From contig NZ_FNOR01000018.1 of assembly GCF_900107095.1 (NCBI RefSeq), positions 1 through 64,000 on the forward strand: 64,000 bases of DNA, in the 5' to 3' direction. The notes beneath the pieces were generated by a model that worked only from the letters and a program-made list of their open reading frames with translations, was not told the DNA's origin and ran no database searches. The DNA comes from Collimonas sp. OK242. GTDB taxonomy: Bacteria > Pseudomonadota > Gammaproteobacteria > Burkholderiales > Burkholderiaceae_D. The stretch's first letter is position 1, and each line of letters starts with the position of its first letter. This document shows positions 1 through 20,934 of the stretch, in pieces. Made by a program: the position numbers and the translations under genes.

Positions 1-310
<310 letters not shown>

Positions 311-562
311 CTACACCTCGAATGAAACGCGCCCTTCCAGGTCACTCCATGTTTTTTTCTGTTTCCACCCCATCCAGTCATTGGCCATCTCTCGAAATAA
401 GTCTGCGGGGGAGGAGACCACATATGTTGACGACGGCGCTGTGCCCGCAAACCAAGGCGTCTTCACCCCGACATTAAAAACTGTCTCTTCTTTATAACGC
501 GAAATCACTTCAAAAATTAGGAGCGAGCCATCGTCCGACGATTTAAACTCTAGATGATTCAT
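311..562 (-). pseudogene. DUF6228-like protein, C-terminus cut by the IS insertion
   Basis: The frame gives 83 residues and ends at a TAG directly against the IS edge. The segment DWMGWKQKKTWSDLEGRV resembles the W-x-G-W...W-x-S-L-E-G block of DUF6228 proteins, which normally continue for some tens of residues as a beta-rich tail. That tail is absent here, and the stop probably comes from the insertion junction. The function of the family is not established; members often sit in small accessory islands near toxin or immunity genes. No strong ribosome binding site precedes the ATG. It could also be an intact short protein. Confidence 0.5.
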
Positions 563-622
563 ACGCCATAGCTTTCTAACGGTAAACCTAAACGGCGCGA
601 AGCGTCGGTGCTGAGCGACGAG

Positions 623-1090
623 CTAAGCATTCGTCACCCTCCTAAACAGCGCTTCGTCACGCGTTACAAAAAACATTGTCGGTGTCCCGGCCCCAAGCAC
701 ATGCAGTGGTTGACAGGCTTCTACTTGTGACCAGAACGCATTTGCTAAGTTGTTGCTTGCGTCGAGTGGTGCAAATCCAAAGTGATTTACGAATGCGCGA
801 CAGTGGCCGATGGCTCCAGAATTATCGTACACGTACCATTCGTCAAAGCCTGGCATGGGTAATTGGAAAACCTCCGAAATCCGCGGGCTAATCGCCATTC
901 CGCGTTGGTCGCACCATCCGGTTTTTATCTCGGTGTCTGTTGGCCTATATGGTCCGCTATCGCAGGATGCGATGGCTACATACCGTCCTACAACTATTTC
1001 AGGAAAGCGACCAATGAGGTCCTTAAGAGAAGGGTCCCAATCCTCCCTCCACTCTACAACCCAATAGCCAGCTTGGGAGCCTGTACGCAT
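623..1090 (-). CDS. Hypothetical protein, immunity-like
   Basis: The product is a 155-residue soluble, acidic and aromatic-rich protein with no signal peptide or membrane segment. The motif FDEWYVYD near residue 103 and the adjacent GHCRAFVNHFGF block recur in small orphan proteins of proteobacterial accessory islands, but I cannot name a family. It lies between the truncated DUF6228-like gene and a TPR-like gene on the same strand, an arrangement common in orphan immunity arrays of contact-dependent toxins. That role is inference. The coding frame is clean and longer than chance for this composition. Confidence 0.6.
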   Translation of the reverse strand: MRTGSQAGYWVVEWREDWDPSLKDLIGRFPEIVVGRYVAIASCDSGPYRPTDTEIKTGWCDQRGMAISPRISEVFQLPMPGFDEWYVYDNSGAIGHCRAFVNHFGFAPLDASNNLANAFWSQVEACQPLHVLGAGTPTMFFVTRDEALFRRVTNA

Positions 1091-1234
1091 AATGTTTAAT
1101 CCCGCATTAACCTGAGCACTTGTGCGTCAGCGTTGAATAACAAAGCCGGCTGCTTTGGGGCAGTTTCTTCATTGCCCAGTTTTGGCCGACGGCCGCCATC
1201 TAGGGGCGGTGCTTGATACGAATCGTCCGCAATA

Positions 1235-1861
1235 TCACGCGATAATTTTGAGCAAGCTCGCCACGGTTTCGGTATGTTCTCTGCCCACTAAGCCGAGATT
1301 CTGATGGAAGCGAAAGCGTGATTTCTTTATTTTCGCCGAATCCAGAGCAACGGAAGCACTTCGCACTGCATCTTCCTGTTTTCCCAATTCAGAAAATATC
1401 ATGGCACGAGCTGCGTGGCACAAGAATGTGTCAACCGGGAACATCATATCGTTGACTCGCTCATCGAGCGCTCCAATTGCGGCCGCATATTCATCACGCA
1501 TCCTGTTCGATGCAACGAAATATGGGAAATCGGCAAACATCCGTGTTTTGTTGCCTGGCTTATGCCGCTCAATAGCAAGTATCTCTTTCATGACTTGAGC
1601 TGCTTCGAAAAGGCGACCTAGTTTCCTGAGCGCGTAAGCACGAGCGCTCAGCGCCCGTATGTCATCAAAGGTTGTCGTCTTAGTGCTGAGATAGCGGTCG
1701 ACCAATTGAAGCGCGACCTCGGGCTGAAGCTCGGCGATTGTCAGCGCTTGGATTGCAAGATATTGGTCACGTTGGGAGCGAGCGCGAGCTAAGCGCTCAA
1801 GAAACTCATCTTCAATCGAAGGATTCCAGTCTTTATTCCGATACCAGTTTTCGTCACTCAT
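1235..1861 (-). CDS. TPR-like helical protein of unknown function
   Basis: I start at the ATG at 1861 (MSDENWYRNKDWNPSIEDEF), giving 208 residues. The longer frame up to 1924 adds a poorly conserved leader. The sequence is almost all helical, with repeated A/L-rich pairs such as IQALTIAELQPEVALQLVDR and ARAMIFSELGKQEDAVRSAS typical of tetratricopeptide-like repeats. There is no signal peptide or membrane span. It probably acts as a cytoplasmic interaction scaffold, but no partner is indicated. It is the third gene of the small minus-strand island at 311-1861. Its far end touches the broken MFS gene at 1921, suggesting this island replaced DNA that was there before. Confidence 0.7.
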   Translation of the reverse strand: MSDENWYRNKDWNPSIEDEFLERLARARSQRDQYLAIQALTIAELQPEVALQLVDRYLSTKTTTFDDIRALSARAYALRKLGRLFEAAQVMKEILAIERHKPGNKTRMFADFPYFVASNRMRDEYAAAIGALDERVNDMMFPVDTFLCHAARAMIFSELGKQEDAVRSASVALDSAKIKKSRFRFHQNLGLVGREHTETVASLLKIIA

Positions 1862-1920
1862 CTTGGCCTGCGAATAGTCGTGGAGAAAATTAATCGTCCA
1901 ATATTGCCACGAAGTAATTA

Positions 1921-2298
1921 TCAAAGCAACATCTTATTCGAAGAGCTCACGAATGTCCGCACTTGGTTCAGATCGTGGATGAAGGGCAGGATCGCCGCCA
2001 GCAGCGTGCAAGTGGCAAGCATCCACAATTCGAAGCGGCGAACCGAGAGCGTAACGCCAAACCATGCCGAAAAAGGCATGGCAATGAATTCCCCGGCGCT
2101 GTACACCGTGGTAAGCCACGAGGCGTCGTCGAGGCCAAAACCCAGTACGCCGCGTACATCTGCCAGCGCCAACGCGCCAACACGATTGTTCAACCCCGCC
2201 ATCATGGCGGCGAGGAAAATGCCAACGAGTCCCGCCATGGGGTGTGTCGAAGGCGTGGTCAGGGACGCCGCTGTTTGCGACAATGCAGCGCTACTCAT
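1921..2298 (-). pseudogene. MFS multidrug transporter (DHA2/EmrB type), N-terminal fragment
   Basis: The ATG at 2298 overlaps the TGA of the upstream efflux lipoprotein gene in an ATGA, the usual translational coupling of an efflux operon. About 110 residues look genuine: a first membrane helix (AGLVGIFLAAMMAGLNNRVG), the DDASWLTTVYSAGEFIAMP block typical of 14-helix drug exporters, and a third hydrophobic segment. After HDLNQ the sequence stops matching the family and ends within 16 codons. Roughly three quarters of the normal 500-residue protein is missing, so it cannot transport. The junction near 1965 marks a deletion or replacement event. Confidence 0.8.
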
Positions 2299-3809
2299 TG
2301 GCTGCCCCTTGACCGTGACGTGACCGGCAACACCATGGCAGCCTGCGGCGCGGTTTTGAGTGCATCCGGGTTCCAACCGCCGCCTAGCGACTTGTACAGG
2401 TTGACCAAAGTGAGCGTCGCGTTGGTTGCGCTCGCATTGAGACTGGTTTGGCTGGCAAGCAAGTTGCGCTGCGCAGTCAGTACGCTCAGATAGTCGGCAG
2501 CGCCTTCCTGATAGCCTCGCTCGGCAGCGTGCAGTGCCTGGCTGTTCTGCTCATACGAAACCAGCAATTCACCGTGCTGGCGCTGTTGAGCGGCCCAGGC
2601 ATCCAACGCATTGTCCACTTCATGCCAGGCTCGCAATACCGTTTGCCGATAAGCGAGGGCGGCCGTTTTTTGCCGTGCTTCGTTCAGGGCCAGGCGCTGC
2701 GTCAACCGGCCACCCTGGAAGATAGGAAGGTAAACCGTCGGGCCGACCGAAAAGAAGCGGGAGTCCCAACTAGCGAGATCGCCAATTTCGAAGGCTTCCA
2801 CGCCGATTTGCCCTCGCAAGCCGATACGTGGGTAGAAATCAGCTTTGGCTACACCGATGGCTGCTGTGGCGGCATGGAGCTGTGCTTCAGCGCGCAGGAT
2901 GTCCGGCCGCCTGTGAGCCAATTCAGAGGGGATGCCGACCGGTACGCTGGTCGAAAGCGAAGGCAAGGGCATGGTTTCACGCAGTTGCACATCGAGTGTG
3001 CGCGGCTTTTCCCCCAACAACAACGCAAGTGCATTCATCAGGGCGTTGCGATGCTGGATCAGTTCGGGAACCATGGCCTTGATCGTCGCCAACTGCGCGC
3101 GAGCGGACGAGGTGTCGAAGCGAGTAGCGACGCCGTTACGCTCGCGGCTTTCGGTCAGGTTGAGGATGCGCCCGGCGACTGTCAGGTTCTGCTGGGCGAT
3201 GTCCAGTTGCGCCTGCGTTCCGCGCAACTGCAAATAGGTTCGAGCCACTTCGGCGGACAAGGCCACCCGTGCTGCTTCGCGGTCATACGCCGTGGCTTCC
3301 ACGGCCGCCGCGGCGCCCTCGCGTGCGCGTCGCGCACGGCCCCACAGATCGATCTCCCAACTGGCATCGAATCCAAACTGCCAGAAATCGTTGGGACTGG
3401 TAGGCGCTCCCAGTGCCGCGAACTTGCCGTGTTCGCTGAGCGCCTCACGTGCGTAGCTGGCGCCAGCGCTTACGCTGGGCAACAACTGTGAGGAGGTAAT
3501 ACCCAATTGCGCCCGGCTCTGTTCAATGCGTTCGGACGCTATTTGCAGATCGAGGTTGTCAGCCTGCGCGCGTAATTCCAGATCGGCTAATACCGCGTCG
3601 TTGAACAACATCCACCACTGGGAGGGAACGTTGGAATCGGAAGGCTGGACGACGTTTGCGTAGTCCGCCCTGAGCGCCAGCGTCACTTCGCCAAGCCCGT
3701 TTTCTGGCTTCACAAAGTCGGGGCCAACCGCACAGCCAGCCAGCGAGACTGCACATAGCGTCGCGCTTGCGTACCGCTGTAGTTGTGAAAGCACAGGTTG
3801 TGAGGTCAT
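2295..3809 (-). CDS. NodT/OprM-family efflux outer-membrane lipoprotein
   Basis: This 504-residue protein has a lipoprotein signal ending in LAGC followed by AVGPDFVKPE, the standard mature N-terminus of RND/MFS outer-membrane factors. Two OEP repeats follow, with long helical regions rich in A, R and Q (for example IASERIEQSRAQLGI and LRAEAQLHAATAAIGVAKADFYP). It should form a trimeric channel-tunnel across the outer membrane and periplasm. Its coupled partner, the MFS pump at 1921-2298, is truncated and no adaptor gene follows, so this channel has either lost its pump or works with another one. It lies 44 bp downstream of the secreted protein gene at 3854. Confidence 0.92.
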   Translation of the reverse strand: MTSQPVLSQLQRYASATLCAVSLAGCAVGPDFVKPENGLGEVTLALRADYANVVQPSDSNVPSQWWMLFNDAVLADLELRAQADNLDLQIASERIEQSRAQLGITSSQLLPSVSAGASYAREALSEHGKFAALGAPTSPNDFWQFGFDASWEIDLWGRARRAREGAAAAVEATAYDREAARVALSAEVARTYLQLRGTQAQLDIAQQNLTVAGRILNLTESRERNGVATRFDTSSARAQLATIKAMVPELIQHRNALMNALALLLGEKPRTLDVQLRETMPLPSLSTSVPVGIPSELAHRRPDILRAEAQLHAATAAIGVAKADFYPRIGLRGQIGVEAFEIGDLASWDSRFFSVGPTVYLPIFQGGRLTQRLALNEARQKTAALAYRQTVLRAWHEVDNALDAWAAQQRQHGELLVSYEQNSQALHAAERGYQEGAADYLSVLTAQRNLLASQTSLNASATNATLTLVNLYKSLGGGWNPDALKTAPQAAMVLPVTSRSRGSQ

Positions 3810-3853
3810 TGCAGCATCCTGTTGAAGGAAGGGATACGGGCCATAGAGCCACG

Positions 3854-4642
3854 CTACCGGATCGAGGCCCGTACCAAGCGAAACGGGCGCGAATCCACAG
3901 CAAAGGCGATCACGGCATCAGCCGCAGGCCCCGGCGGGTTATCTATTGCCGTTTCGAAGTGACCGCCCAAACGATTGCCGGCGGGATCCTCCAAAGTGCC
4001 ACGGACGACCAGTTGGTACTGGCCGGCCCGCCATGGCACACGCGGGGTGAACGTCCAAACCCTTTCGCCGTCTTTCAGCTGGGCGCGCCCATCGACTCGG
4101 TGATTGCGGCTGTCCGCAATCGCCAGGTAGCCGGCGTCCCGGCCATCGATGGGTCCATCCAGCGTCACAACGAGGGCTTGCTTCGACGCGACGCTGATCG
4201 GCGACAGCTTCCACGCTGACGGCACCGGGCCATTCTCACGCGCAGCCCCAACGATCCACCGCTGGATGGGATGTCCATCAAGCGCAAGAGCAACCTCATC
4301 CCCAGCTGCCAGGATCGGCCCCATCTCTTCTCGCGCATTCAGACCAGTCTTGACGCGTCCGGGATGCATCATGACAGTCAAAATCCTGCCGTTCGGGGAC
4401 CAAAGCTCCTGCTGAAGAAACGGTTCCTGGATCGGCCTGCCGTCGGCGTGCACCAAGGCGATCCTGGGCAGCACCGGGCCTTCGACCGGCTCCGCAAACT
4501 CGATGGAGATGCGAAGCAGGTTCGCCGGGACTTCGGGAGCCGACGGCTGAACCAGCACCGCGTGCGGCGTAGGTTGCGCGGCAGCAGTCCCACTGAGCAC
4601 AAGCGCCAGCGCTGCAGCGGAGAACAATCGGCCGAGATGCAT
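3854..4642 (-). CDS. Secreted protein with Ig-like (SbsA/Big_5-type) domain
   Basis: A 262-residue protein with a signal peptide ending LVLSGTAAA-QP. Residues about 40-130 (RISIEFAEPVEGPVLPRIAL, then GPILAAGDEVALALDG) and 150-245 (VVTLDGPIDGRDAGYLAIAD, then FTPRVPWRAGQYQLVVRG) read like two beta-sandwich units of the bacterial Ig-like type that describe extreme values along a fold. No catalytic motif is visible. The gene starts 3 bp after the stop of the beta-propeller-like gene at 4646, so the two are almost certainly co-transcribed and may form a periplasmic or surface complex. I do not recognise a named function. Confidence 0.65.
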   Translation of the reverse strand: MHLGRLFSAAALALVLSGTAAAQPTPHAVLVQPSAPEVPANLLRISIEFAEPVEGPVLPRIALVHADGRPIQEPFLQQELWSPNGRILTVMMHPGRVKTGLNAREEMGPILAAGDEVALALDGHPIQRWIVGAARENGPVPSAWKLSPISVASKQALVVTLDGPIDGRDAGYLAIADSRNHRVDGRAQLKDGERVWTFTPRVPWRAGQYQLVVRGTLEDPAGNRLGGHFETAIDNPPGPAADAVIAFAVDSRPFRLVRASIR

Positions 4643-4645
4643 GAA

Positions 4646-5875
4646 CTACTCCGATGCCTTGATGAATTCCGGGAAGCCCTCTTCCTTCAGCAACATGTCC
4701 TGCAGTGGCTTGACGTACTGCAATTGAAACGCGTTGCCCTTAAAGCTGTGTTCTGGGAATGCGTACTCCGAGATATGGTCGGTCAGCCGGAAGCTTAAGC
4801 CTTTTCCCATGGACACTAATTCCAGTGAGTCCTTCTCGAGTCGCCGACGCACGAAGACGAATGATTTATCATCAAGGTTGTCGAGTCGCAGCGTACCAAC
4901 AAGCGGGGCCTGCATCACGTCCAGGCCAGCGATCTGCCCGTACGGCACGATCGTCTCGATGCCTGGCCGGGCTCCTGCAGCCTCGAGTTGAGAGACTGGG
5001 ATGACGTTCGATACACGGTTAAAATTCACCAACAAAAGAAAATCTTCCGCTTTGCCCTGATCGGTCTTCGTGTACGCGATCATGTCGGCGGGTGTGTTGC
5101 CGTAGCCTAGTTCGGCGACAGTCTTGCCGCGGATGTGGGCGCCATCCTTCAGGTCGTCGAGCGGGATGATCACGAGGGGGGTGCAGGTATAAGCGGCCAC
5201 GAGGTAGGTCTTGCCGCCCCAAGTCGCGAAGTTCATCGCCCGAATTGGCGCCCGCGTTTCGATCAGGTTGTGACCTGTATGGTAGATTTCCACCGAGGTG
5301 ATCGACTGCGGCGATCCGAACGGGTATTTGACCCGCCGCAGGGTCGACGCGAAATCCTGGTTGGACAAACCGGCGACGAACAGCTCTCCATCGCGCCACT
5401 TCATGTCGGTGACAGTGAAACTGCGCTCGGGCGTTTCCCTCCAGAATTTGTAGTCCGTTGTGGGTGCGTCGCGAAGCGCTATCGATGTTGACGCCGCCGC
5501 CTTCAGGTCGACGCGCCGAACCTTTTTGTCGCTGGTCACCACGATAAGCGCCGGCGTTTTCGTACGGCCGTAGCTGACGGCAACATACACCTCTGCCGTG
5601 CCCGGTCGGACGACCATATCCTCGACAGTAACCTTGGCGCCGCCAACCTGCGTGGAAAGACGCTCCTCGAGGTCAAGCACATTGAATACCGTTCCGGCCG
5701 GCTTTTGCGGCGCAGCAGGAAGCGTGATCGCGTGGACACGCGCCGCTTTCCAGTCGGCGACGAAAAGGATGTTGTCAGGCCCTGCAGCGAGACGAGAGAT
5801 GGATTTCACGTCCGCCGCGGAAGCACTGGCGGAAGCAAGCAACAAGCAAGATATGGCAATGAGAGGAATGCGCAC
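4646..5875 (-). CDS. Secreted beta-propeller-like protein of unknown function
   Basis: A 409-residue protein with signal peptide MRIPLIAISCLLLASASASA. The mature part alternates short strands with segments such as GPDNILFVADWKAARVHAI, EDMVVRPGTAEVYVAVS and MKWRDGELFVAGLSN, a pattern typical of NHL/YVTN-like beta-propeller blades. No active-site signature or haem-binding motif is seen. It heads a minus-strand run continuing into the Ig-like protein and the efflux lipoprotein. The pairing of a propeller with an Ig-like partner suggests a binding or structural role in the periplasm; that is inference. Confidence 0.65.
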   Translation of the reverse strand: MRIPLIAISCLLLASASASAADVKSISRLAAGPDNILFVADWKAARVHAITLPAAPQKPAGTVFNVLDLEERLSTQVGGAKVTVEDMVVRPGTAEVYVAVSYGRTKTPALIVVTSDKKVRRVDLKAAASTSIALRDAPTTDYKFWRETPERSFTVTDMKWRDGELFVAGLSNQDFASTLRRVKYPFGSPQSITSVEIYHTGHNLIETRAPIRAMNFATWGGKTYLVAAYTCTPLVIIPLDDLKDGAHIRGKTVAELGYGNTPADMIAYTKTDQGKAEDFLLLVNFNRVSNVIPVSQLEAAGARPGIETIVPYGQIAGLDVMQAPLVGTLRLDNLDDKSFVFVRRRLEKDSLELVSMGKGLSFRLTDHISEYAFPEHSFKGNAFQLQYVKPLQDMLLKEEGFPEFIKASE

Positions 5876-6124
5876 GAACAGCTCCTATTTAACAGATGAA
5901 AAACCAAACTCCAGGCAAACGGGGCTAATCGCCCCAGCCTTACTGCGCGGACATTCGTCGTCTTCGTTGCGGCGGGTGGCAAGAAAAGACGGGCTTAGGA
6001 CTGCCGACCCGCCGCGAAAGATGGCGAATGCGGACATTGGCTGCACCAAGAACGGTGGGACAGGTCAGATCAGTATCTTGGTTGAGTCAGGCGCCAACGC
6101 CACCCCACCAGACGCCGACTGTTT

Positions 6125-6532
6125 TCACTTCACCGGTATCAATACTGGCTTTTTCTTTTCTTTTACAAGAAAAACCAGAAGCTTTGCGGGCGTGGTGGCG
6201 CTCGCGTTCCGACCTACCGTATGGATGTCCTCAGGGCCTTCATAGAACGTCTGGCCAGACGTAAGCGTCTGTTCCTTCCCTCCTTTTACTCCCATCACGA
6301 CGGAGCCCTCCAAGACGTAGATGAAGCCATGCGCATCGTGGCGATGGACCGGGTCGACATTACCCGGCGGGTATTCAACCAGAATCAAGAGCCCCTCTTT
6401 GCCGGGGATGTTATTGAATGACTTCTCGAGCAGCGGTGTAACTACAGCATCCCCAGCAGCGGTCGCGTGCTGAGTAGCGACCACACCTGCCATGGTGCAA
6501 ACCACAGCGATTAGTTTCTTAATATTAAGCAT
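6125..6532 (-). CDS. Secreted cupin-domain protein
   Basis: A 135-residue protein with an N-terminal signal sequence (MLNIKKLIAVVCTMAG...ATAAG) followed by a single cupin barrel. The first cupin motif is visible as VDPVHRHDAHGFIYVLEGSV, with two metal-ligand histidines and a glycine turn. The second motif (GQTFYEGPEDIHTVGR) supplies another histidine. Such small periplasmic cupins bind a metal or small ligand; the substrate is unknown. GGAG precedes the ATG at a normal distance. It is the last gene of a minus-strand run with the AhpD-like and NmrA-like genes. Confidence 0.8.
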   Translation of the reverse strand: MLNIKKLIAVVCTMAGVVATQHATAAGDAVVTPLLEKSFNNIPGKEGLLILVEYPPGNVDPVHRHDAHGFIYVLEGSVVMGVKGGKEQTLTSGQTFYEGPEDIHTVGRNASATTPAKLLVFLVKEKKKPVLIPVK

Positions 6533-6606
6533 GGCGTTTCTCCGTTTGTTGGCTACCGGCAGGCAGGTTCGGCGCAGCGCCCTTACGCGGCTGCGTCGAT
6601 GCCTGG

Positions 6607-7086
6607 TCAGGACAGGCCGGACTTGTCTACGCCGAATGCTTTGTCGTATGTACCGGGTACGAGCCGGAAGCCCACGTTGATGCGATTCCAGGCATTGATC
6701 GACATCACCAGAAAGGTCAGATCGGACAATTCCTTCTCGGATAATTGCGCGCGAACATGCTCATAGACGTCATCAGGCACGCCTTGGGCGGGAATCTGGG
6801 TCAGGATTTCGGTCCACGCCAAGGCAGCGCGTTCGCGCGGACTGAACAGCGTTGACTCGCGCCAGATAGCGACATGATGCAGCCTGAGCGGCCGCTCGCC
6901 ATGTATCGTGGCTTCCTTGACGTGCATGTCCACGCAGAAGGCGCAGCCGTTGATCTGCGATGCCCTGATATCCACGAGATCGCGGACCGACTCCTCGATC
7001 GCGGAATTCTTGAAGGCAAGGCTGAACTCGACGAACTTCTTGAATAGCTCGGGGGATTGCTTCTGGTAATCGATGCGTTGGGTCAT
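6607..7086 (-). CDS. Carboxymuconolactone decarboxylase / AhpD-like protein
   Basis: This 159-residue helical protein carries the AhpD-type redox motif QINGCAFCVDMHVKEA, with Cys48, Cys51 and His55. Proteins with this motif are usually small peroxidase or alkylhydroperoxidase-like enzymes rather than true carboxymuconolactone decarboxylases. Length and motif position fit the family. It lies 46 bp downstream of the NAD(P)-binding protein at 7133 and 74 bp upstream of the secreted cupin, probably in one transcript. An AhpD-like protein, an NmrA-like protein and a cupin often occur together under a nearby regulator; here the TPR regulator at 8305 is the candidate. Confidence 0.88.
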   Translation of the reverse strand: MTQRIDYQKQSPELFKKFVEFSLAFKNSAIEESVRDLVDIRASQINGCAFCVDMHVKEATIHGERPLRLHHVAIWRESTLFSPRERAALAWTEILTQIPAQGVPDDVYEHVRAQLSEKELSDLTFLVMSINAWNRINVGFRLVPGTYDKAFGVDKSGLS

Positions 7087-7132
7087 GATGGCTCCTCAAT
7101 GTGATAAGAACGTAGGTTAATGATTCGCTTGC

Positions 7133-7888
7133 TCATCCTTGCGCCAATGAGCGGCTGAGCCAGTTGTGGAAACGTGTCGGGCCGATATGCGGGTTGTCGC
7201 CCGCGACCAGAGATCGATCATTCAACTCACTGCCGAAATAGCGCGCATGCACGTCGGCGATTACCGGCCTCTTGTCGTTGCGCGCGGCAAGAAACTTGCG
7301 CCCAAGTTCGTCGAGAGGGAAGCAATCAGGTCCGGCCACCTCGACGATGCCATTCACCGGTACCCCGACCGCGAGATCGGCCAGCACAGCCGAGACGTCA
7401 TCCGCTGCGATGGGCTGAATGAGGGCGGGCGACAGGCGAATCGTGTTGCCGTCGGCGCCGGCGTTAACTATGCCTTCGACGAACTCGAAGAACTGCGTCG
7501 AACGCAGGATGGTGTAGGGAATCTTCGACGCTTTGATCAGCTCTTCCTGGGCGACTTTTGCCCGAAAGAAACCGCATTCCGGAAGGCGATCGGTGCCAAC
7601 GATAGAGAGCGCGACGTGGTGCTCCACGCCGGCGTCAGCTTCAGCAGCAAGAAGATTTCGACCGGAGGTTTCGAAGAATTCCAATACGGCCTGGTCCTCA
7701 AATGAGGGCGAGTTTGCCACGTCGACAACGACCTGAGCGCCCGCAAGCGCTTCAGCCAGCCCCTTCCCGGTGATGGTGTTTACGCCCGTGCGAGGCGATG
7801 CCGCCACAACCTCATGGCCATTGAGACGTAGTCTGTTCACAATGTTCGACCCGATAAGGCCGCTACCTCCAATAACGACTATTTTCAT
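7133..7888 (-). CDS. NAD(P)-binding atypical SDR / NmrA-like protein
   Basis: The 251-residue product opens with MKIVVIGGSGLIGSNIV, a G-x-x-G-x-x-G Rossmann loop. It lacks the classical YxxxK catalytic pair and has the C-terminal layout of atypical SDRs (NmrA, NAD(P)H-binding). These act as redox sensors or as reductases of small quinones. GAGGAG lies 7 nt before the ATG. It is first in the minus-strand run 7888-6125 and is divergent from the winged-helix regulator at 8305 across a 416-bp gap. Confidence 0.85.
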   Translation of the reverse strand: MKIVVIGGSGLIGSNIVNRLRLNGHEVVAASPRTGVNTITGKGLAEALAGAQVVVDVANSPSFEDQAVLEFFETSGRNLLAAEADAGVEHHVALSIVGTDRLPECGFFRAKVAQEELIKASKIPYTILRSTQFFEFVEGIVNAGADGNTIRLSPALIQPIAADDVSAVLADLAVGVPVNGIVEVAGPDCFPLDELGRKFLAARNDKRPVIADVHARYFGSELNDRSLVAGDNPHIGPTRFHNWLSRSLAQG

Positions 7889-8304
7889 GTTTCGCTCCTC
7901 GGTTTAGTGTCGATCATCTTCATTGCGGGGATCGATGGATTCAGTCTGCGCGCCAACTGGGCGGAATGCTTTGCCAATACCTTGGGTTTTCATTGAATTT
8001 TGCTTGGAAATTTGTCCACGAGCCGGTGTCGTTTCGGCTGATCTGCGCACCATTTCCAAGAGCCGTGCGCATTTCCAAATGACGAGGCGTTGCTCAAGCT
8101 GTATTATTTAGGATTGCGCAACATCGGCAAGATATGGGTGATGCCGGGCGATGCCGATTCAGAACCGGAAGGCGGTGCTGAACCGGTTCACCATCCGCTT
8201 CGATGAACATATGCCGCGGCATTAAACGATTTCCCGATGACACAAAATCGCGGACACACTCTGACCACGTTCCCGGCGCATGAGCACGGGACAAGGAACT
8301 CTGA
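7889..8304. other. Intergenic region with IS256-type debris
   Basis: This 416-bp space between two divergent genes must hold both promoters, but I see no convincing operator. Its middle holds the transposase remnant at 8072-8225. The rest shows no open frame of interest and no repeat. Confidence 0.5.
8072..8225 (+). pseudogene. IS256-family transposase, C-terminal remnant with frameshift
   Basis: Translation gives FPNDEALLKLYYLGLRNIGK then IWVMP, matching the conserved end of IS256-type transposases. After VMP the frame breaks. A 1-nt-shifted frame resumes as IQNRKAVLNRFTIRFDEHMP and ends RH-TAA at 8223-8225. The break coincides with a 7-nt direct repeat, GATGCCG-GGC-GATGCCG at about 8140-8156, consistent with a 10-bp tandem duplication. 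Nothing upstream of 8072 continues the protein, so this is inactive debris. Confidence 0.7.
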
Positions 8305-9888
8305 ATGCTATTAGTGTTTGACGACTGCGTGCTCGACCTGGACCGGCGGGAGCTCCTGCGGGCGTCCCGGGTCATTGCAACCGCGCCTCAAGTATTCGAC
8401 CTGCTGGCCTACCTGGCGGAGAGCCGCGAGCGCGTCGTCAGCAGGGACGACCTGATTAATACGATATGGGCCGGCCGAATCGTCTCGGAGTCGACCTTGG
8501 CCAGCCACATTAACGCGGTGCGCAAGGCGGTCGGCGACAGCGGTCAGCAGCAGAGCGTGATTCGAACGGTTGCCCGCAAAGGATTCCGGTTCGTCGCCGA
8601 TATCAGGAAAGTAAAGTCATTGGATGGCGTTGACCTTTCTGGCACCGAGTCGGCCGCATCGGTTCAAGTCTCTGCATCTGCGCCAGCCCTGCCTGCCAAA
8701 CCGTCCATTGCTGTCTTGCCGTTCGTGAACTTGAGCGGAGACCAGGAGCAAGACTACTTGGCTGACGGCGTGGTAGAAGACATCATCGCGGCGTTATCGC
8801 AGTATCGCTGGCTGTTCGTCGTCGCGCGTAATTCGAGCTTTACCTACAAGGCCCGAATAGTGGACGTGAAACAGGTCGGCCGTGAGCTGGGTGTTCGTTA
8901 TGTGCTGGAGGGCAGTTGGCGCAAGGCAAAAAATCGTGTGCGCATCACGGTTCAGCTGATCGATGCGACAACCGGGGCACATCACTGGGCGGGCCGTTTC
9001 GAAGGCGTGCTTGGGGACATCTTCGAACTGCAGGACCAGATTACCACGAGCGTGGTCGGCGCGATCGCTCCTGAGCTCGAGCGGGCGGAGATCGAACGTG
9101 CGAGGCATAAGCCAACCGAAAACCTTGACGCCTACGATTACTATCTGCGCGGAATGGCCAAGTTGCATCAGGGCACCAGGGAGACCATCGACCAGGCGCT
9201 GCCGCTCTTCCACAAGGCAATGGAGATCGATCCGGATTTTGCGTCGGCCTATGCGATGGCGGCATGGTGTCACTGCATGCGGAAGATCAATCGCTGGATG
9301 ACCGATCGCCCACGGGAAATGGCGGAGGGCGTCCGACTGGCTCGCCGCGCCGTGGAGTTGGACAAGAGCGATGCGGTTGCGCTCACCAGAAGCGGCCATG
9401 CGCTTGGCCATCTTGCCGGCGACCTCTCGGGCGGCATTGCATTGCTGGACAAGGCACTCGTGCTCAATCCGAACCTCGCAGGAGCCTGGTTCCTCGGCGC
9501 GTACCTCAGAATCTTGCACGGCGAAACCGATACAGCCATCGAGCACCTTGCATGCGCCATGCGTTTGAGTCCCCTCGACCCGGAACTGTACAGAATGCAA
9601 ACCGGAATGGCGCTCGCGCATCTCTTCATGGAGCGATTCGACGCTTCGTCGTCATGGGCAGAGAAAGCGTTACGGGATTTGCCGAGTTTTCTGCCGGCGG
9701 TCGCCATCCTCGCGGCGAGCCATGCGCTTGCCGGACGGATGGCCGAAGCGCAGCGTGCGATGGATCATTTGCGCCAGCTCGACTCTACGTTGCGTCTCTC
9801 CAATATTGCAGATTGGCTACCGATCCGCCGGCCGGAGAATCTCGCCACATTTGTGGACGGTCTACGCAGAGCGGGGCTGCCGGAATAA
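8305..9888 (+). CDS. Winged-helix (OmpR/CadC-type) regulator with TolB/FlgO-like and TPR domains
   Basis: The 527-residue protein has three parts. Residues 1-97 form an OmpR/PhoB-type winged helix (RELLRASRVIATAPQVFDLL through RTVARKGFRFVADI). Residues about 130-260 form the TolB/FlgO-like domain seen in adenylate-cyclase-type TPR proteins (PSIAVLPFVNLSGDQEQDYL). Residues 265-520 are TPR repeats such as GIALLDKALVLNPNLAGAWF. CadC-like homologues usually have a membrane helix after the winged helix; I see none, so this one should be cytoplasmic and sense something through its TPRs. It is divergent from the NmrA/AhpD/cupin run and is the obvious candidate regulator of it. Confidence 0.9.
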   Translation: MLLVFDDCVLDLDRRELLRASRVIATAPQVFDLLAYLAESRERVVSRDDLINTIWAGRIVSESTLASHINAVRKAVGDSGQQQSVIRTVARKGFRFVADIRKVKSLDGVDLSGTESAASVQVSASAPALPAKPSIAVLPFVNLSGDQEQDYLADGVVEDIIAALSQYRWLFVVARNSSFTYKARIVDVKQVGRELGVRYVLEGSWRKAKNRVRITVQLIDATTGAHHWAGRFEGVLGDIFELQDQITTSVVGAIAPELERAEIERARHKPTENLDAYDYYLRGMAKLHQGTRETIDQALPLFHKAMEIDPDFASAYAMAAWCHCMRKINRWMTDRPREMAEGVRLARRAVELDKSDAVALTRSGHALGHLAGDLSGGIALLDKALVLNPNLAGAWFLGAYLRILHGETDTAIEHLACAMRLSPLDPELYRMQTGMALAHLFMERFDASSSWAEKALRDLPSFLPAVAILAASHALAGRMAEAQRAMDHLRQLDSTLRLSNIADWLPIRRPENLATFVDGLRRAGLPE

Positions 9889-9965
9889 AGGAGAGCCGCA
9901 AGGACGATTGTGAAGGCATTCTTTTGGGGGTGACCAAGCACTTCCCGAAAGGATTAGACAATCGT

Positions 9966-10157
9966 ATGCGTGATAAAAATGGCGAAATCCGCAAAAAGCG
10001 GGACGACACCCAAGTAGGAACATCACGCAAGCAATATGGAGACAATTTCGCGAAAGGGTATAGCACCTTGAAGAAGTCGCTCGCTTTGCTCAAGAAATTC
10101 TCCGGGGATTGCCTTGAGTTCAATTCTGGAATTGTGGCGGAGCTCGGCATTGCTTAG
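9966..10157 (+). CDS. Small basic conserved protein (63 aa), Burkholderiales type
   Basis: The peptide MRDKNGEIRKKRDDTQVGTS continues with RKQYGDNFAKGYSTLKKSLA. I recognise this style from short orphan proteins in Burkholderia and relatives, whose shared core is MRDK-x-GEI-x-x-K-x-x-x-T-x-V and Y-G-x-x-F-A-x-G. GAAAGGA precedes the ATG by about 9 nt. It has no signal peptide and many Lys and Arg residues; a nucleic-acid-related role is possible but unproven. It lies 77 bp after the TPR regulator, on the same strand, and before mobile-element debris. The C-terminal third departs from the usual pattern and may be altered. Confidence 0.65.
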   Translation: MRDKNGEIRKKRDDTQVGTSRKQYGDNFAKGYSTLKKSLALLKKFSGDCLEFNSGIVAELGIA

Positions 10158-10225
10158 AAAAGGGGCATTTGGCGGTCTGATACTTGTCTTGTCACTCCGT
10201 CAGCTCACCCTAGCAAAGCCGCGCC

Positions 10226-10383
10226 CACAAAGGGCTCGACAGTCTATGTTGTCCGTTTTGACTAAAAATTTAAAAATCGAGATTGTCCCGACAGACTTTG
10301 CGGCCAATCTCTTAATTTTTCTTTTCCATAAAAATCAGATACTTATTAAATGCGTTTCCGACAGACTTTATTGTTCGCTTTCA
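10226..10383 (+). repeat. Triple-unit 158-bp repeat, copy 1 (transposon-end-like)
   Basis: Three related units begin with CGACAG at 10237, 10289 and 10359 (spacings 52 and 70 bp). The third reads CGACAGACTTTATTGTTCG. A second copy of equal length aligns without gaps at 41559-41716, with unit starts at 41571, 41623 and 41693. The core AGACTTTATTGT closely resembles the reverse complement of Tn7 TnsB-binding sites, and iterated sites near a terminus are the hallmark of Tn7/Tn402-type ends. No transposase of that type is in the window. The transposon interpretation is inference; the repeat itself is directly visible. Confidence 0.8.
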
Positions 10384-10402
10384 GGAAACTGGGAACGTCA
10401 AT

Positions 10403-10468
10403 TAGTTTCGGATACACATGGCCTAAATAAGCTGAAAAGCCAATACTGACGCGCTGTATCCGAAACTA
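10403..10468 (+). repeat. 66-bp unit with 14-bp inverted arms, copy 1
   Basis: The arms TAGTTTCGGATACA (10403-10416) and TGTATCCGAAACTA (10455-10468) are perfect inverted repeats separated by 38 bp. A second copy at 20747-20812 has identical arms, the same 38-bp gap and a largely conserved interior (CTGAAAAGCCAAT is shared). It lies 20 bp after the triple-unit repeat. The arms end in ACA and begin with TGT, as transposon termini of the Tn7/Mu/Tn402 type do, so this may be two element ends facing each other, or a recombination site. Confidence 0.8.
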
Positions 10469-10676
10469 TTGTCCATCTGGTGGTCCGTCAGAACAAAGAC
10501 ACTAACTACGGCGGCAGCTCTAATTGAAAATTATTAGTCGGCCTTGAATAATTCAGTTTTCCAGAAATTGGCTTAGCCCACCAACATTGATGAAGATCAT
10601 CGCCACGGGTTGGTTGAGCAGCAGTCACCGCAGAGGCGCAAGTACCACCGGCAACTGCTGGCAGCCAGTGTCGGCG

Positions 10677-10890
10677 GCCGAACGCGCTTTGCGTGGCGTG
10701 GCCATCGACCGACGCAACTTTCTGTTGCCGGTGCCGACAGCGGCGGAGCGCGCGCCGCCGCGCTCTACTCGCTGATCTGTACGGCCAAGCTCAACGGGGT
10801 CGCCCCCGAGGCTTGTCTGCGTCATGTGCTGGCCAACATTGCTGATCATCTCGTCAATCGAGTCGACGATTTCCTGCCCTGGAACGGCGT
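10677..10890 (+). pseudogene. IS66-family transposase, C-terminal remnant
   Basis: Two frames are needed. One gives AERALRGVAIDRRNFL; after a frameshift the next gives VAGADSGGARAAALYSLICT, then AKLNG and later HVLANIADHLVNRVDDFLPW. Together they reproduce the end of IS66 TnpC, including the S-L-x-x-T-A-K-L-N-G and D-x-L-P-W-N blocks. Nothing N-terminal is present and no IS66 TnpA or TnpB is nearby, so the fragment is dead. Confidence 0.8.
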
Positions 10891-10989
10891 TGCGCGGCTT
10901 TCCAGGGCTTGCAAAAACACGCCGCTTATCAGCGGTGTGATGCCATCGCCTGGCAATTCGATGCCACCAGACTCAAGGCAGCACTGGCT

Positions 10990-11382
10990 TTATGCTTGGT
11001 TTGTGTCGTCATTCGTTTCGTTGTTTGCGTCGTAGCGCAGGCGATTGTCGTACAGTGTATCTAAGTTCGCGAGCGCCCATTTGGCCAGTTCCCGCACTGG
11101 TTCGGACAGTGAATGTCCGAATGGCGTCAGAGCATAGTCGACCTGCGGTGGCGAGGTGGCGCGCACCGTGCGTTCGACCAAGCCGTCGCGCTCGAGCACC
11201 TTTAGCGTGCGTGTCAGCATCTGTTGCGAGATCCCGTTGACCTGACGCCGCAGATCGTTAAAGCGGCGCGGCTGGTCGCGCAGCACCACGATGACCTGCA
11301 TGCTCCATTTGTCGCCGACCCGGTTGAGCACTTCGCTCACTTGGCGACAGTGACGGGTAGTGGGCAGTGTGGTCACACTCAT
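10990..11382 (-). CDS. HxlR-family transcriptional regulator
   Basis: I start at the ATG at 11382 (MSVTTLPTTRHC), preceded by GAGG about 11 nt upstream, rather than at a longer in-frame start at 11433. The 130-residue protein has the HxlR winged helix: a near-N-terminal cysteine, VGDKWSMQVIVVLRDQPRRF, and LTRTLKVLERDGLVERTV. HxlR proteins are DNA-binding homodimers, often responsive to electrophiles or redox through the N-terminal cysteine (here in RHCRQV). It is divergent from the glutathione S-transferase gene, which it probably regulates. Confidence 0.92.
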   Translation of the reverse strand: MSVTTLPTTRHCRQVSEVLNRVGDKWSMQVIVVLRDQPRRFNDLRRQVNGISQQMLTRTLKVLERDGLVERTVRATSPPQVDYALTPFGHSLSEPVRELAKWALANLDTLYDNRLRYDANNETNDDTNQA

Positions 11383-11477
11383 ATGACTTGGCCTCAAAAA
11401 TATGCGTTTTTGTAGAAATTCAGATAGTCTCATACTAGGTCCTGGTCAACAATCCTGACTTAACACAAAGGACATTC

Positions 11478-12062
11478 ATGATTCTCTACTACGCTCCCGG
11501 CGCCTGCAGCCAAGCCTCACACATCGCCCTGATCGAGGCGGAAATATCCCACCGGCTCGTCAAAGTTGGACGCGACCGGCGCACCGACGACGGCGCGGAC
11601 TTCAATCTTATTAACTCCAAGGGTTATACCCCGGCGCTCGATCTGGGCGACGGTACGATCCTGACTGAGAACCTAGCTATTCTCGTCTACATCGCGGAGA
11701 AGTCGGGCAAGCTTCTGGCTAAAGGCGGTGTGGAGCGCTGGCGCGCTCTGGAAGCGACGACTTTCATGACCACCGAGATCCATCGCAACTTTATGCCTTT
11801 TTTCCGTAATGGAACCGCGCAGGAAAAGGAGAAGGCCGCGCAGACACTGCTTGTGCGCTTCGGCACTATCAGCGAGCAGTTGGGTAACAAAGCGTTTTTG
11901 GTGGGCGAGCAGATGACGATTGCCGACTGCTATCTGTTTGTCATGCTGTCGTGGGCCGCCATGATGGGCATCGTGCTACCTCAGCGGCTCAGCGATCATC
12001 TGACCCGGATGAAGGGCTTGCCTTCGGTGACCAAGACGCTGAGCGCAGAAGGACTCGCTTAG
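11478..12062 (+). CDS. Glutathione S-transferase (beta-class-like)
   Basis: A 194-residue protein with an N-terminal thioredoxin-like domain beginning MILYYAPGACSQASHIALIE. Cys10 in the P-G-A-C-S motif is the catalytic or mixed-disulfide cysteine of beta-class bacterial GSTs. The domain keeps the TPALDLGDG cis-proline loop and the LTENLAILVYIAE glutathione-binding Glu-Asn. The helical C-terminal domain (FLVGEQMTIADCYLFVML) has the conserved N-capping S/T-x-x-D box. It would conjugate or reduce electrophiles in the cytoplasm. AAAGGA lies 7 nt before the ATG. It is divergent from HxlR at a distance of 95 bp. Confidence 0.93.
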   Translation: MILYYAPGACSQASHIALIEAEISHRLVKVGRDRRTDDGADFNLINSKGYTPALDLGDGTILTENLAILVYIAEKSGKLLAKGGVERWRALEATTFMTTEIHRNFMPFFRNGTAQEKEKAAQTLLVRFGTISEQLGNKAFLVGEQMTIADCYLFVMLSWAAMMGIVLPQRLSDHLTRMKGLPSVTKTLSAEGLA

Positions 12063-12120
12063 CGCCGGCAGCGTTGGATAGAGCGGGGACGTACTGTTCC
12101 GTACAAGGTGCCGAACACCA

Positions 12121-12145
12121 CCATAAGGCGACTCGCGCCTTATGG
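12121..12145 (+). terminator. Inverted repeat downstream of the GST gene
   Basis: CCATAAGGCG and CGCCTTATGG form a perfect 10-bp stem around a 5-nt loop, 59 bp after the GST stop. No T-tract follows, so it is at best a weak intrinsic terminator. It also separates the GST gene from the sugar permease operon converging from the right. Confidence 0.45.
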
Positions 12146-12337
12146 CGAGGGAATCCCTGCCCACCGTGACCAGTGATTTTAAATTTCTGTGCCGGTTTCA
12201 GTCATAGCGACGTACAGCGCTCATAGAAAGCCGTTCGGCAATAGACGTTGAGATTGCCAGTACACGCCTGACTGGGCAAGCTGGCATCAACCGGGCGTGC
12301 TGGGGCAGGTCCAGTTGTAGGCGGCACTAATAGCGAC

Positions 12338-13189
12338 TCAGCCCTTACTGGCCCCGAATGTAAGACCAACGACAAATTGCTTTTGCATCAGAAAAAACAA
12401 GAGTACGGACGGTATCGCAGCTAGAATCGATCCGGCCGAGACCAGATTCCAAGCGGTGGTCCATTGTCCCTTAAGCGCTGCCACGCCAACTGTAATCGGT
12501 GCCACATCGTCGCCCTGGGTCAGGCACAGCGCCCAGAAATAGTCGTTCCAGACAAACGTGAAGACCAGGACGGCCAGGGCCGCCAGTGCTGGCCGGATCA
12601 GCGGCAGCACGATACGATAAAAAACCGTCCATTCCCCAGCGCCCTCGATGCGCGCCGCTTCAATCATTTCGTAAGGCAATTGCTTGATAAAGTTACGCAG
12701 AAACAGCGTGCAAAAACCGGTTTGCATGGCGACATGGAAAAGAATCAGGCCACTCACCGTATTAAACAAGCCCAGCGACACGGAGATCTCGCGCACGGGA
12801 ATCATGAGAATCTGCTGCGGCACAAAATTGCATGCCACGAAAGTAGCGAACAACAACGCATTACCCCGGAATTTGTAGGTCGACAGCGCATAACCGGCCA
12901 TGGCGGCCAATGCAATGGCGCCGATCACCGACGGTATGGTGATCAGGCAGCTGTTCCAGAAGTAATGCGACATCGGCGACGCGGTGAGCGCTTCGCGATA
13001 ATTATCCAGCATGGCGAAATCTTTAGGCCAGCCCCAATAATTACCTTCCATCAGTTCGTCGGTAGAGCGTACCGAAGTCACCAGCACTGCCAATATCGGC
13101 AGCAGCCATATCAGCAAGGCGACCGGCAACGACAGTTTGTACAGGATGCGATTGGACGCCTTCCATTTTTCTATGGGCATGGGAAACAT
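12338..13189 (-). CDS. Sugar ABC transporter permease (MalG-type)
   Basis: The start is ATG 13189 (MFPMPIEKWKAS), which has AAGGGAG 6 nt upstream; a frame opening at 13210 overlaps the previous gene and has no such site. The 283-residue protein has six membrane helices and the EAA loop EMIEAARIEGAGEWTVFYRI, the coupling helix that contacts the ATPase. The sequence resembles MalG/LacG-type permeases of the CUT1 family. It is the last gene of the beta-galactoside operon and starts 10 bp after the MalF-type partner. Confidence 0.93.
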   Translation of the reverse strand: MFPMPIEKWKASNRILYKLSLPVALLIWLLPILAVLVTSVRSTDELMEGNYWGWPKDFAMLDNYREALTASPMSHYFWNSCLITIPSVIGAIALAAMAGYALSTYKFRGNALLFATFVACNFVPQQILMIPVREISVSLGLFNTVSGLILFHVAMQTGFCTLFLRNFIKQLPYEMIEAARIEGAGEWTVFYRIVLPLIRPALAALAVLVFTFVWNDYFWALCLTQGDDVAPITVGVAALKGQWTTAWNLVSAGSILAAIPSVLLFFLMQKQFVVGLTFGASKG

Positions 13190-13199
13190 GGCAACTCCC

Positions 13200-14132
13200 T
13201 TAGCGTTCATCGCGCAGCAGGCGGCGCAATTGATAAACGATGTAGATCAGCATGATGGCGAACAAGGTGACGGCAATCGCCGCCGAATAGCCCTGGCGAT
13301 AGTATTTGATGGCTTGGTCATAGGTGTAATAAGCCAGCACGGTCGAGCTTTCGAATGGACCGCCGCTGCTCATGACGGAAATAAGATCGAAACTGCGCAG
13401 AGCGCCGATGATAGTCACCACAAATGCCATGAAGGTTGTCGATCTGAGTTGCGGAAGAATGACATAGCGCAGCATGCTCCAGCCTTTGGCTCCCTCCATG
13501 CGCGCCGCCTCTACCTGATCGACGTTAATTGAGGTCAGGCCGGTGAGAAACAGAATCATGCAATACGCGGTCTGCGGCCAAAGGGCGGCAAAGATGATGC
13601 CGAACGTGACATAGCGCGGGTCTCCCAATACGGGTACGCCATGCCCCAGCAAGAGCGTCAGCAAGCCAAACGTCGGATCATAAAACCAGCTGAAGATCAG
13701 CCCGACCACGACCCCCGACAAAACAAAGGGCGCAAAAAACAATGCCTTGATCAAGCGTATGCCGCGCACCTTCTGATTCAGATAGAGCGCCGCGATCAGG
13801 CCGGCCGGCGGCGCCAGCAAAAACAGCAGCAGCCAGGTCAGGTTGTTTTTCAACGCGACATGAAATGTCGGTGCGTGCAACATCTCGATATAATTCGCAA
13901 ACCCGATGAACTCGGGTTTCATCATGCCATCCCAATTAAAGAAACTGAGATAGATTGTGTAAAATATCGGGTACAGCACATACACGGCCGTCATCAGGCA
14001 GGCAGGCGCAAGGAACCAGATTGCGGCGCGGTTCCGTCTGGAGGCAGTGCTGCGACGGCGCGGCTTACTGGCTGCCGCAAGATCGGAAGGCTGCGGCCTT
14101 GCTGGAATAATGGCAGGTGTTTGGGCGGACAT
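13200..14132 (-). CDS. Sugar ABC transporter permease (MalF/UgpA-type)
   Basis: I choose ATG 14132 (MSAQTPAIIPARPQ) because GGGAG precedes it at 8 nt; the frame extends three codons further. The 310-residue protein begins with a basic cytoplasmic tail rich in Arg, followed by six membrane helices. The EAA loop is NVDQVEAARMEGAKGWSMLR. It forms the heterodimeric channel with the MalG-type permease. The gene lies between the solute-binding protein and its partner permease, the usual CUT1 order. Confidence 0.93.
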   Translation of the reverse strand: MSAQTPAIIPARPQPSDLAAASKPRRRSTASRRNRAAIWFLAPACLMTAVYVLYPIFYTIYLSFFNWDGMMKPEFIGFANYIEMLHAPTFHVALKNNLTWLLLFLLAPPAGLIAALYLNQKVRGIRLIKALFFAPFVLSGVVVGLIFSWFYDPTFGLLTLLLGHGVPVLGDPRYVTFGIIFAALWPQTAYCMILFLTGLTSINVDQVEAARMEGAKGWSMLRYVILPQLRSTTFMAFVVTIIGALRSFDLISVMSSGGPFESSTVLAYYTYDQAIKYYRQGYSAAIAVTLFAIMLIYIVYQLRRLLRDER

Positions 14133-14251
14133 GGCAATCAACTCCCGTTGAACCGTCTACAGCAAAAAAAATGTTGCGCGAAAGCGCAACCGCACAGTAA
14201 TGCAGCGGTTGCCCCCTCGCGGGTACTGATGAACATCCGTTAGCAGGCAGC

Positions 14252-15490
14252 TCACGTTTTCTTGTAGATGCGCTTGCGGCTTTGTTCAAGTTCATTGAGG
14301 ACTTCATCGAGCTTGCCCGGATCGCTGATGAACTTCTGCATGCCCTTCATGCCTTCATCCGCCATTTCCTTGGTCATGTCGCGATCATAGAATTGCGCGA
14401 TGCCACCCTTGGTGTTCGACAGAATCTGGAAGCCGATGCGTGAAATCGATTCGGTCGGTTCCGGTGCTTTGCTATTCGCCGGCAACGATCCCAGCCCCTC
14501 GGCAAGCTTGGCGCTGATCGCCGGCGTGCCGACAAAGGCGAGGAAACGATGGGCGTCAACCTTGTTGCGCGCCTTGCTGGGGATATGGATCGATTCTGCC
14601 GGGCCGTCCTCGGCGGTAGGAATCTTGGCGTCGATGATCGGGAACTGGAAATATCCCATGTTGGCAGCCAGTTTTGGCGGGAATCCCTTTGCAATGAAAG
14701 TCCCCATCAGCATCATGGCCGCCTTGCCCTGGAACAGGAACGGCTGGGCGCCGTCGAGATCGTAAGACAGCGAATTATCGATGAAGTATTTGTTGTCGAT
14801 CAGGGTTTTCCAGGCGCTGTAGACTTTTTTAACGCGCGCATCGGTGTAAGGGATTTCACCGGCCATCAGCTGCTGATGGAAAGCGTTGCCGTTCAGGCGT
14901 AAATCCAGATAATCAAACCAGCCTGCCAAGGTCCAGGAATCGCGGCCACCGACCGCGAACGGGGTAACGCCGGCCGCCTTCAATTTGTTGCAGGCATCGA
15001 GAAACTCTTCCCAGGTTTTCGGTTCTCCGGCAATGCCGGCGGTCTTGAACACGTCCTTGCGATAAAACAAACCCCAGGAATAATACACAGTCGGCAGTGC
15101 GTATTGTTTGCCCTTGTACGACGAGGCATCCTTAGTGGACGCATAGATCTCATCCCATTTGTTTTTCTTCCAGTCGTCGCTGAGGTCTTCCAGCAAGCCG
15201 CGGCTGGCGTAGAACGCCATGCGTTCGCCGTTATGCCAATTGATGACGTCCGGCGCCTGGGTTGACAGCCAGCCCGGCAGTTGCACCTTGTAAGCCTCCT
15301 CCTCGACGAATGCCGCTTTGATATCTACATCCGGGTTGGCCTTCTTGAATTCGTCCAGTGTCGATTGCCATACCGCGCGTTGGCTCGCGCCTTTGTAGGC
15401 GATATTGACGGCCAGGGTTCCGGCTGCGGCCGAACCCAACGCTGAAACCAGCAAGGCTGCCAGTAAACTTGTGCAAAACAGCTTTTTCAT
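14252..15490 (-). CDS. ABC transporter extracellular sugar-binding protein
   Basis: The 412-residue protein starts with signal peptide MKKLFCTSLLAALLVSALGS followed by AAAG. The mature part has the family-1 solute-binding fold: WQSTLDEFKKANPDVDIKAA, WLSTQAPDVINWHNGERMAF, FFYRKD-type strands and the hinge segment VTPFAVGGRDSWTLAGWFDY. It would capture an oligosaccharide in the periplasm and deliver it to the two permeases. Its place directly after the GH42 gene points to a galactoside or galacto-oligosaccharide; the ligand is inferred from context only. Confidence 0.93.
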   Translation of the reverse strand: MKKLFCTSLLAALLVSALGSAAAGTLAVNIAYKGASQRAVWQSTLDEFKKANPDVDIKAAFVEEEAYKVQLPGWLSTQAPDVINWHNGERMAFYASRGLLEDLSDDWKKNKWDEIYASTKDASSYKGKQYALPTVYYSWGLFYRKDVFKTAGIAGEPKTWEEFLDACNKLKAAGVTPFAVGGRDSWTLAGWFDYLDLRLNGNAFHQQLMAGEIPYTDARVKKVYSAWKTLIDNKYFIDNSLSYDLDGAQPFLFQGKAAMMLMGTFIAKGFPPKLAANMGYFQFPIIDAKIPTAEDGPAESIHIPSKARNKVDAHRFLAFVGTPAISAKLAEGLGSLPANSKAPEPTESISRIGFQILSNTKGGIAQFYDRDMTKEMADEGMKGMQKFISDPGKLDEVLNELEQSRKRIYKKT

Positions 15491-20172: not shown

Positions 20173-20579
20173 ACTCATCTGGCAACTGAGATATGTCTGC
20201 ATTCGACGAGGCCAGAAGCAGTCGTTGAAATTCCCTCTTTTATTTGGATGAGCGAATGTGCCAGTTTTATTTGAATTTAATTCATCGGTAAGCGTGGCGT
20301 CATTACCATATTGACGTGGGGCGCCATCTGATGCGCCCAAATCCATGGCTTCTTTGGTCCCGGCACTCGGCTTTTCGAATTTTCGCGGAATTCACTCGGC
20401 TTGCCGCTGTACGATGATTTTTTTCGGCTCGGTTGACGGGCGGGCGGGCCAACTCAGCAAGCAAACGAACACTTCCGCAGCCAAATCGGGTTACTACTTG
20501 CAAATTGAAGGCGTCCATATATGAACCCCTCGGACTGGGCCAAGGTTGTGACTGCGTCCCGACGTATCGAAACGGTTAG

Positions 20580-20722: not shown

Positions 20723-20746
20723 AATACCTATTGTGAGAACATCAAT

Positions 20747-20812: not shown

Positions 20813-20934
20813 TTGTCTTTCGTAAAAAATGCTCCCCCTGCGCTAAAAAAGTGGGATTGAGATAGTAAATTCCAATCTTTCGCATATCGAAAAGCAGACG
20901 CGGTATCTTGATTTGGTCGGAATGGGATCTTGCC

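Follow-up and report, generated by a model that had tools for sequence, protein, structure and literature searches.

Predicted Tn7-like left ends as the probable identity of a repeated 158-bp sequence in Collimonas sp. OK242

The window analysed here, a stretch of 64,000 nucleotides of Collimonas sp. OK242, holds a 158-bp repeat with three short units at fixed distances. This raised the question of what element the repeat belongs to, and how several copies came to lie among ordinary accessory genes.

Copies and architecture of the 158-bp repeat

Two copies align without gaps, at 10226-10383 and 41560-41717. Between 10228-10383 and 41562-41717, 128 of 156 bases are identical and 28 differ, and a genome-wide search of OK242 gives the match between the two copies an E-value of 8.6e-39. 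Both copies in the preliminary description are thus real, and the second lies one base from the coordinates given there. The units start at 10237, 10289 and 10359 in copy 1 and at 41571, 41623 and 41693 (CGACCG) in copy 2, so the reported spacings of 52 and 70 bp are equal in the two complete copies. In a third copy with one unit (51821-51846, plus strand), the inner flank CAAAGGGCT is fused to the terminal unit. The terminal 25-mer, with up to three mismatches, has 3 matches in the window versus 0.00 expected from 100 shuffles. At E ≤ 0.001, the 4.98-Mb genome has no matches besides the three copies, which all lie on the same contig and on the plus strand. Rfam returned no family at gathering score anywhere in the window, and the reading as a structured RNA was dropped. 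A plasmid origin was likewise dropped, since 10200-10400 has no DNA match in 72,556 plasmid records (E 1e-5).

The repeat was found in 8 of 60 genomes searched, OK242 included. In the alignment of copies from relatives, a common inner flank (..CACAAAGGGCT) precedes at most three units, and all copies break off sharply on the right at ..CGCTTTCA, a boundary beyond which the sequences are unrelated; read inwards from the boundary, the end is TGAAAGCGAACAATAAAGTCTGTCGG. The sharp boundary places the transposon body on the left-hand side of each copy, whose terminus in copy 1 is ...GCTTTCA at 10383. We consider it very probable that the window copies are Tn7-like left (L) ends, orphan or non-autonomous in OK242, within a stacked attTn7 island. 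Each copy would be one left end, assigned here to type f, and its three units predicted TnsB-type binding sites. The earlier proposal of orphan Tn7-like ends or a mini-element holds for the ends; a single copy is not a whole mini-element.

The type-f sites begin 24, 94 and 146 bp from the terminus. The offsets 146/94/24 recur in nine of the ten three-site left ends that were scored, comprising seven type-f ends from Collimonas and Glaciimonas, a type-a end in G013 and the end that accompanies a transposase in G136; the tenth, in G105, has 144/92/24. Spacing kept across genera agrees with the earlier emphasis on spacing as the main evidence. This count leaves out ends with missing units, namely G003 456627 (90/24), G006 2727256 and G007 (24 only), G006 2713372 (two units), OK242 51846, G005 359011, G008, G003 2423983, G012 2714472, G013 328250 and two 36-bp fragments. 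In G014:C58, also outside the scored set, the outer two sites are 122 bp apart, which fits 146/24.

One- or two-unit left ends, at 51821-51846 of the window, L019 9011-9256 and L029 18168-18245, seem to have arisen when units recombined and the intervening DNA was lost; the window copy would have been reduced in this way from three units to a single one. A type-f end with two units and identical flanks was also seen in G003 and G012 (L033 13907-13983 and L031 14396-14472). Because the flanks are the same in two species and the site is far from glmS, it is probably an old common insertion elsewhere in the chromosome.

An IHF-type site, AATCAGATACTTA, lies between the outermost and second TnsB-type sites at 10333-10345 in copy 1 and 41667-41679 in copy 2 (both plus strand). 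Scored with the consensus WATCARNNNNTTR, a match stands in this same place, 51 bp from the terminus, in 7/7 complete type-f left ends, and 50 bp from it in G105. Altogether, 8 of the 10 scored three-site left ends have the consensus, and it was not found in the left ends of G136 and G013. The whole window has 9 matches, about 0.007 per 50 bp. In VchCAST, an IHF site of sequence AATCAGCAAACTTA (PMC10201428, in the part available) lies between the first two left sites, LE1 and LE2 (PMC13370975, likewise in part). By analogy, IHF may act at the left ends described here, where bending within the 70-bp gap between the outer two units would bring the sites together.

Right (R) ends were searched with the signature AATAAAGTCTGTC-N7-AATA(A/T)AGTCTGTC, which was found at 11 places, spread over 10 of 392 family genomes, OK242 included; the reversed control gave 0 matches in the same genomes. 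The site period is 20 bp in 11/11 places, although the search pattern permitted other periods. The arrays are asymmetric, with spaced L sites and tightly packed R sites, and of type f the window holds only L ends. The type-a and type-f ends that were read have TG...CA termini, with 5'-TGA, TGG or TGT at R and ...TCA at L. Flanking bases match over 4 bp in four of five a/f pairs (G105, G007, G136 and G013, not G028), and the true target duplication may be either 4 or 5 bp.

Paired ends and transposition genes in related genomes

According to the preliminary description, copies next to tnsB/tniA genes in this or related genomes would support a transposon end. Paired inverted ends were indeed found in relatives, some of them beside glmS, and in G136 and G105, from two other genera, they bracket a TnsB-like gene. 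In Glaciimonas soli GS1 (G028), an inverted end at 13855 stands opposite the L end at 24153; it has two sites 20 bp apart and starts 23 bp past the stop codon of a gene identified as glmS by its SIS and GATase domains. Chaperone-usher fimbrial and two-component genes lie between these ends. No transposition gene was found among the 6 proteins scanned there, nor any PF08722, PF09299 or PF06527 match in the genome, and the R and L ends have no common duplication.

Ends of this site family follow the glmS stop at a distance of 22-25 bp in G028, G164 (a two-site end, 22 bp), G007 and the MAG DBS1-1.bin143 (one site seen, 22 bp), as do type-a ends in OK242 C50, G005 and G013. The G105 end adjoins the 3' end of amtB, a gene named by eye. 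These ends are thus inserted site-specifically at glmS (attTn7) or at another att gene.

The G136 ends bracket approximately 32 kb, including a TniQ protein and a tns-type operon of a 328-aa protein in the TnsA position, a 675-aa TnsB-like protein and a 412-aa protein. The sole PDB match of the 675-aa protein is Tn7 TnsB (7pik, E 2e-9, 39 bits). The G105 ends bracket about 24 kb by amtB, with a 712-aa TnsB-like protein that is 64% identical to the G136 TnsB and has a neighbour with an AAA_22 domain. In the PDB, the G105 TnsB-like protein has no match, the G105 TnsC candidate 0 matches, and the G136 TnsA candidate three weak unrelated ones, TnsA not being recognised. The TnsB-like proteins and TnsA candidates of both genomes have no Pfam match, and the TnsB behind these ends no NCBIfam match either. 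As another candidate for the cognate machinery, the type-e operon of G006 was rejected: its 728-aa protein scores at most 25 bits (E 0.01) against the G136 TnsB, and its own ends are of type e. Also in G136 (C2:2141002 and 929015; L191, L192), TnsA-domain matches lie in 921- and 895-aa open frames, possibly TnsA-TnsB fusions.

Among the 392 genomes searched with the G136 TnsB, 34 have some match; G136 and G105 alone reach 64%, five further genomes have proteins at 34-38% over most of the length, and the rest are weak. None of the 15 Collimonas genomes has a TnsB of this type. The OK242 genome gave 0 matches for PF08722 (TnsA), PF09299 (Mu-transpos_C), PF06527 (TniQ) and the TnsB protein; since Pfam, whose PF09299 misses the G136 and G105 TnsB, is a weak test for TnsA and TnsB, this absence is read mainly from the TnsB search and TniQ. 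We suppose that the transposition genes of OK242 are gone or were never present, which would leave the window copies as orphan or non-autonomous ends.

Two Collimonas species hold paired ends with no recognised tns gene. In G013, an R(a) end at glmS and an L(a) end 14.2 kb away are both flanked by TCTT (L088, about 217-14470), and the element carries JetD-domain (Wadjet) and SduA-domain (Shedu) genes along with several other proteins that have no Pfam match. In G007, a 16-kb type-a pair flanked by CACC (L160 9168 to L161 10302) sits away from glmS, between LpxK-/ExbB-type genes and a transporter gene. Another type-a end was seen 4 bp beyond this pair. Neither genome has a TnsA, PF09299 or TnsB(f) match. 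That of G007 also has no PF06527 match, and that of G013 has two TniQ matches, on another contig than the paired ends.

We wondered whether the window ends might likewise belong to elements that are still mobile without tns genes, natural mini-Tn7s moved in trans by the TnsABC-TniQ of an incoming relative. The paired G013 and G007 ends with their 4-bp flank match are in favour, as is the fact that two window copies keep three sites, spacing and IHF site despite 28/156 differences, and mobilisation in trans is plausible. However, the window copies have no identified R partner, the third has lost two units, and the family TnsB occurs in 0/15 Collimonas genomes, so we regard present mobility of the window ends as possible and rather doubtful. 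Far less probable is that the repeats are Tn402/Tn5053-type (tniABQ) ends instead of glmS-type Tn7-like ones. Terminal arrays of roughly 20-bp repeats occur there too, as the accessible part of PMC8649781 describes, but the R ends here lie at glmS and 3' of amtB rather than at resolution sites, the spaced three-site L differs from the tight R, and Tn7 TnsB is the sole PDB match of the G136 transposase; a Tn402 affinity need not be invoked. The least probable reading, in which unrelated genes share the repeats as promoter or regulator sites (three operators and an IHF site) that resemble transposon ends by chance, would account for the AT-rich stretch and the IHF consensus, but hardly for the same sites forming inverted R/L pairs, abutting glmS at the attTn7 distance, bracketing a TnsB-like gene, standing in pairs around tns-type operons, and giving way to unrelated sequence at a sharp terminus in each copy.

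The glmS island and the stacked ends of Collimonas

Returning to the reading of the window copies as Tn7-like left ends in an attTn7 island, we analysed where they lie relative to glmS. In OK242, glmS is on contig C50, with a type-a R end 25 bp past its stop, and then a type-b R end. These two R ends of different types stand in series at L081 4080-4400. The window belongs to contig C32, which has 49 kb more. C32:12272-20155 matches G005:394754-386851, downstream of glmS, and C32:85714-90727 matches G005:346899-343747, and partly G006 and G009. From this synteny, we infer that C32 is part of a large island on the downstream side of glmS, its junction with C50 falling between separate contigs of a 56-contig genome. 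In 14 of 16 genomes (all but G001 and G010), an end of a named type (a-f) starts within about 25-32 bp of the final sense codon of glmS, where the types were defined partly from the same glmS-flanking sequences and G007 is counted on a match with 6 mismatches.

The window L ends point away from glmS and displaced ends come next, all on the plus strand. Copy 1 is followed by a type-d end at 10390-10470, a type also beside glmS in G003, and by a type-c right-end remnant at 10481-10510, a type also beside glmS in G008, G014 and G004. A type-b left end at 20567-20726, with three TTTTCGACTTT sites about 147/93/25 bp from its terminus as counted by eye, is directly followed by another type-d end at 20735-20815. 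Types c and d are not tied to a transposase here. A remnant of an IS66-type transposase C-terminal element at 10610-11032 adjoins the stacked ends.

Between the ends, the cargo consists of ordinary accessory genes, including sugar ABC transporter and GH42 beta-galactosidase genes (12.3-18.7 kb), RND efflux genes (21.2-27.6 kb), and LysR, MFS, solute-binding and aldehyde dehydrogenase genes. The three window L ends are flanked by GGAAA, CGCCT and ACGCA, and no R partner was identified for them. Pairing with the R(a) end at OK242 glmS was rejected because the flanking bases mismatch, and pairing of R(a) with L(f) in G006 and G005 because the flanks differ.

Across Collimonas, ends of at least five types lie in series at this one site, and in the loci examined transposition genes could be linked to types e and a/f only. 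The type-e element of G006 has a five-gene operon, with TnsA and two TniQ proteins recognised by Pfam and 728- and 473-aa proteins by position, and has matching 5-bp flanks (AATGT); it abuts a displaced R(a) end. In G012, TnsA and TniQ matches lie at 487-495 kb, with no end type assigned. In Collimonas sp. OK307 (G002), TCTTT follows each of three type-f L ends that lie on a single contig, a pattern to be expected from repeated use of one target. On the minus strand of G002:C29 (L091 19296-19326), six head-to-tail copies of GGTCA stand directly before a type-c R end downstream of glmS. They may record repeated insertion and loss, since 5 bp is the size of the Tn7 target duplication.

The following order of events would account for the arrangement. 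A Tn7-like element would enter at attTn7 just downstream of glmS, presumably guided by a TniQ/TnsD-type protein, and every new insertion would move its predecessors farther from the gene. In the glmS-distal island, a series in one orientation would thus build up, made of left ends and of displaced right ends that belong to several types. Tentatively, and with doubts of our own, we extend this to the genus: Collimonas might hold a natural population of Tn7-like elements that carry cargo but no tns genes, stacked at glmS and moved only when a TnsABC-TniQ helper with matching ends passes through, so that the ends form an ordered record of insertions by several Tn7-like families. The cargo of such elements would include sugar uptake and defence, and fimbriae in Glaciimonas.

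Comparison with known Tn7-like systems

The repeats are of a kind already known, namely Tn7-like left ends. In the literature within our reach, to which most subscription papers and the cited reviews of Tn7 islands do not belong, we saw no account of the end family or its TnsB, nor of paired ends that lack tns genes or a stack of several types. Searches on non-autonomous Tn7-like elements at glmS returned nothing, and those on nonautonomous Tn7-like elements in general only a review of other transposons. By title and the start of the abstract, none of the papers found on Collimonas and Tn7 concerns such elements. Surveys based on tnsB overlook elements in which this gene is gone; here, such elements are recognised by end architecture alone.

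The left end of Tn7 carries three separated sites and its right end four overlapping ones, and Tn7-like elements usually end in TGT...ACA, as stated in the accessible portions of PMC8649781, PMC11406308 and PMC13370975 for the sites and of PMC6360697 for the termini. The ends described here resemble Tn7 in their three separated L sites and closely packed R sites, in insertion immediately downstream of glmS with the R end adjoining the gene, in TG...CA termini and in the tns-type operon, which is present in the relatives G136 and G105. They differ in the site AATAAAGTCTGTC, the 20-bp R period, the TGA...TCA termini, a TnsB very distant from that of Tn7 (39 bits), flanks that match over 4 bp instead of 5, and tns genes that were not found in the OK242 genome. 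Transposases of the Pseudomonas plasmids NZ_CP087161.1 and CP027478.1, annotated only as transposase, are 35-38% identical to the G136 TnsB over 97-98% of its length.

VchCAST (Tn6677, a type I-F3 CAST) also has three unevenly spaced L sites with IHF between LE1 and LE2, and its IHF site resembles AATCAGATACTTA, according to the sections available of PMC10201428 and PMC13370975; unlike that system, the ends here attach at glmS or amtB. When Tn7-like elements insert into or next to each other, multiple left and right ends are reported to result (PMC8649781, in the part accessible). Compared with the nested elements in that part, the Collimonas island brings together at least five end types at one site in one genus, and with these in series, the order of insertion becomes readable and cross-mobilisation testable.
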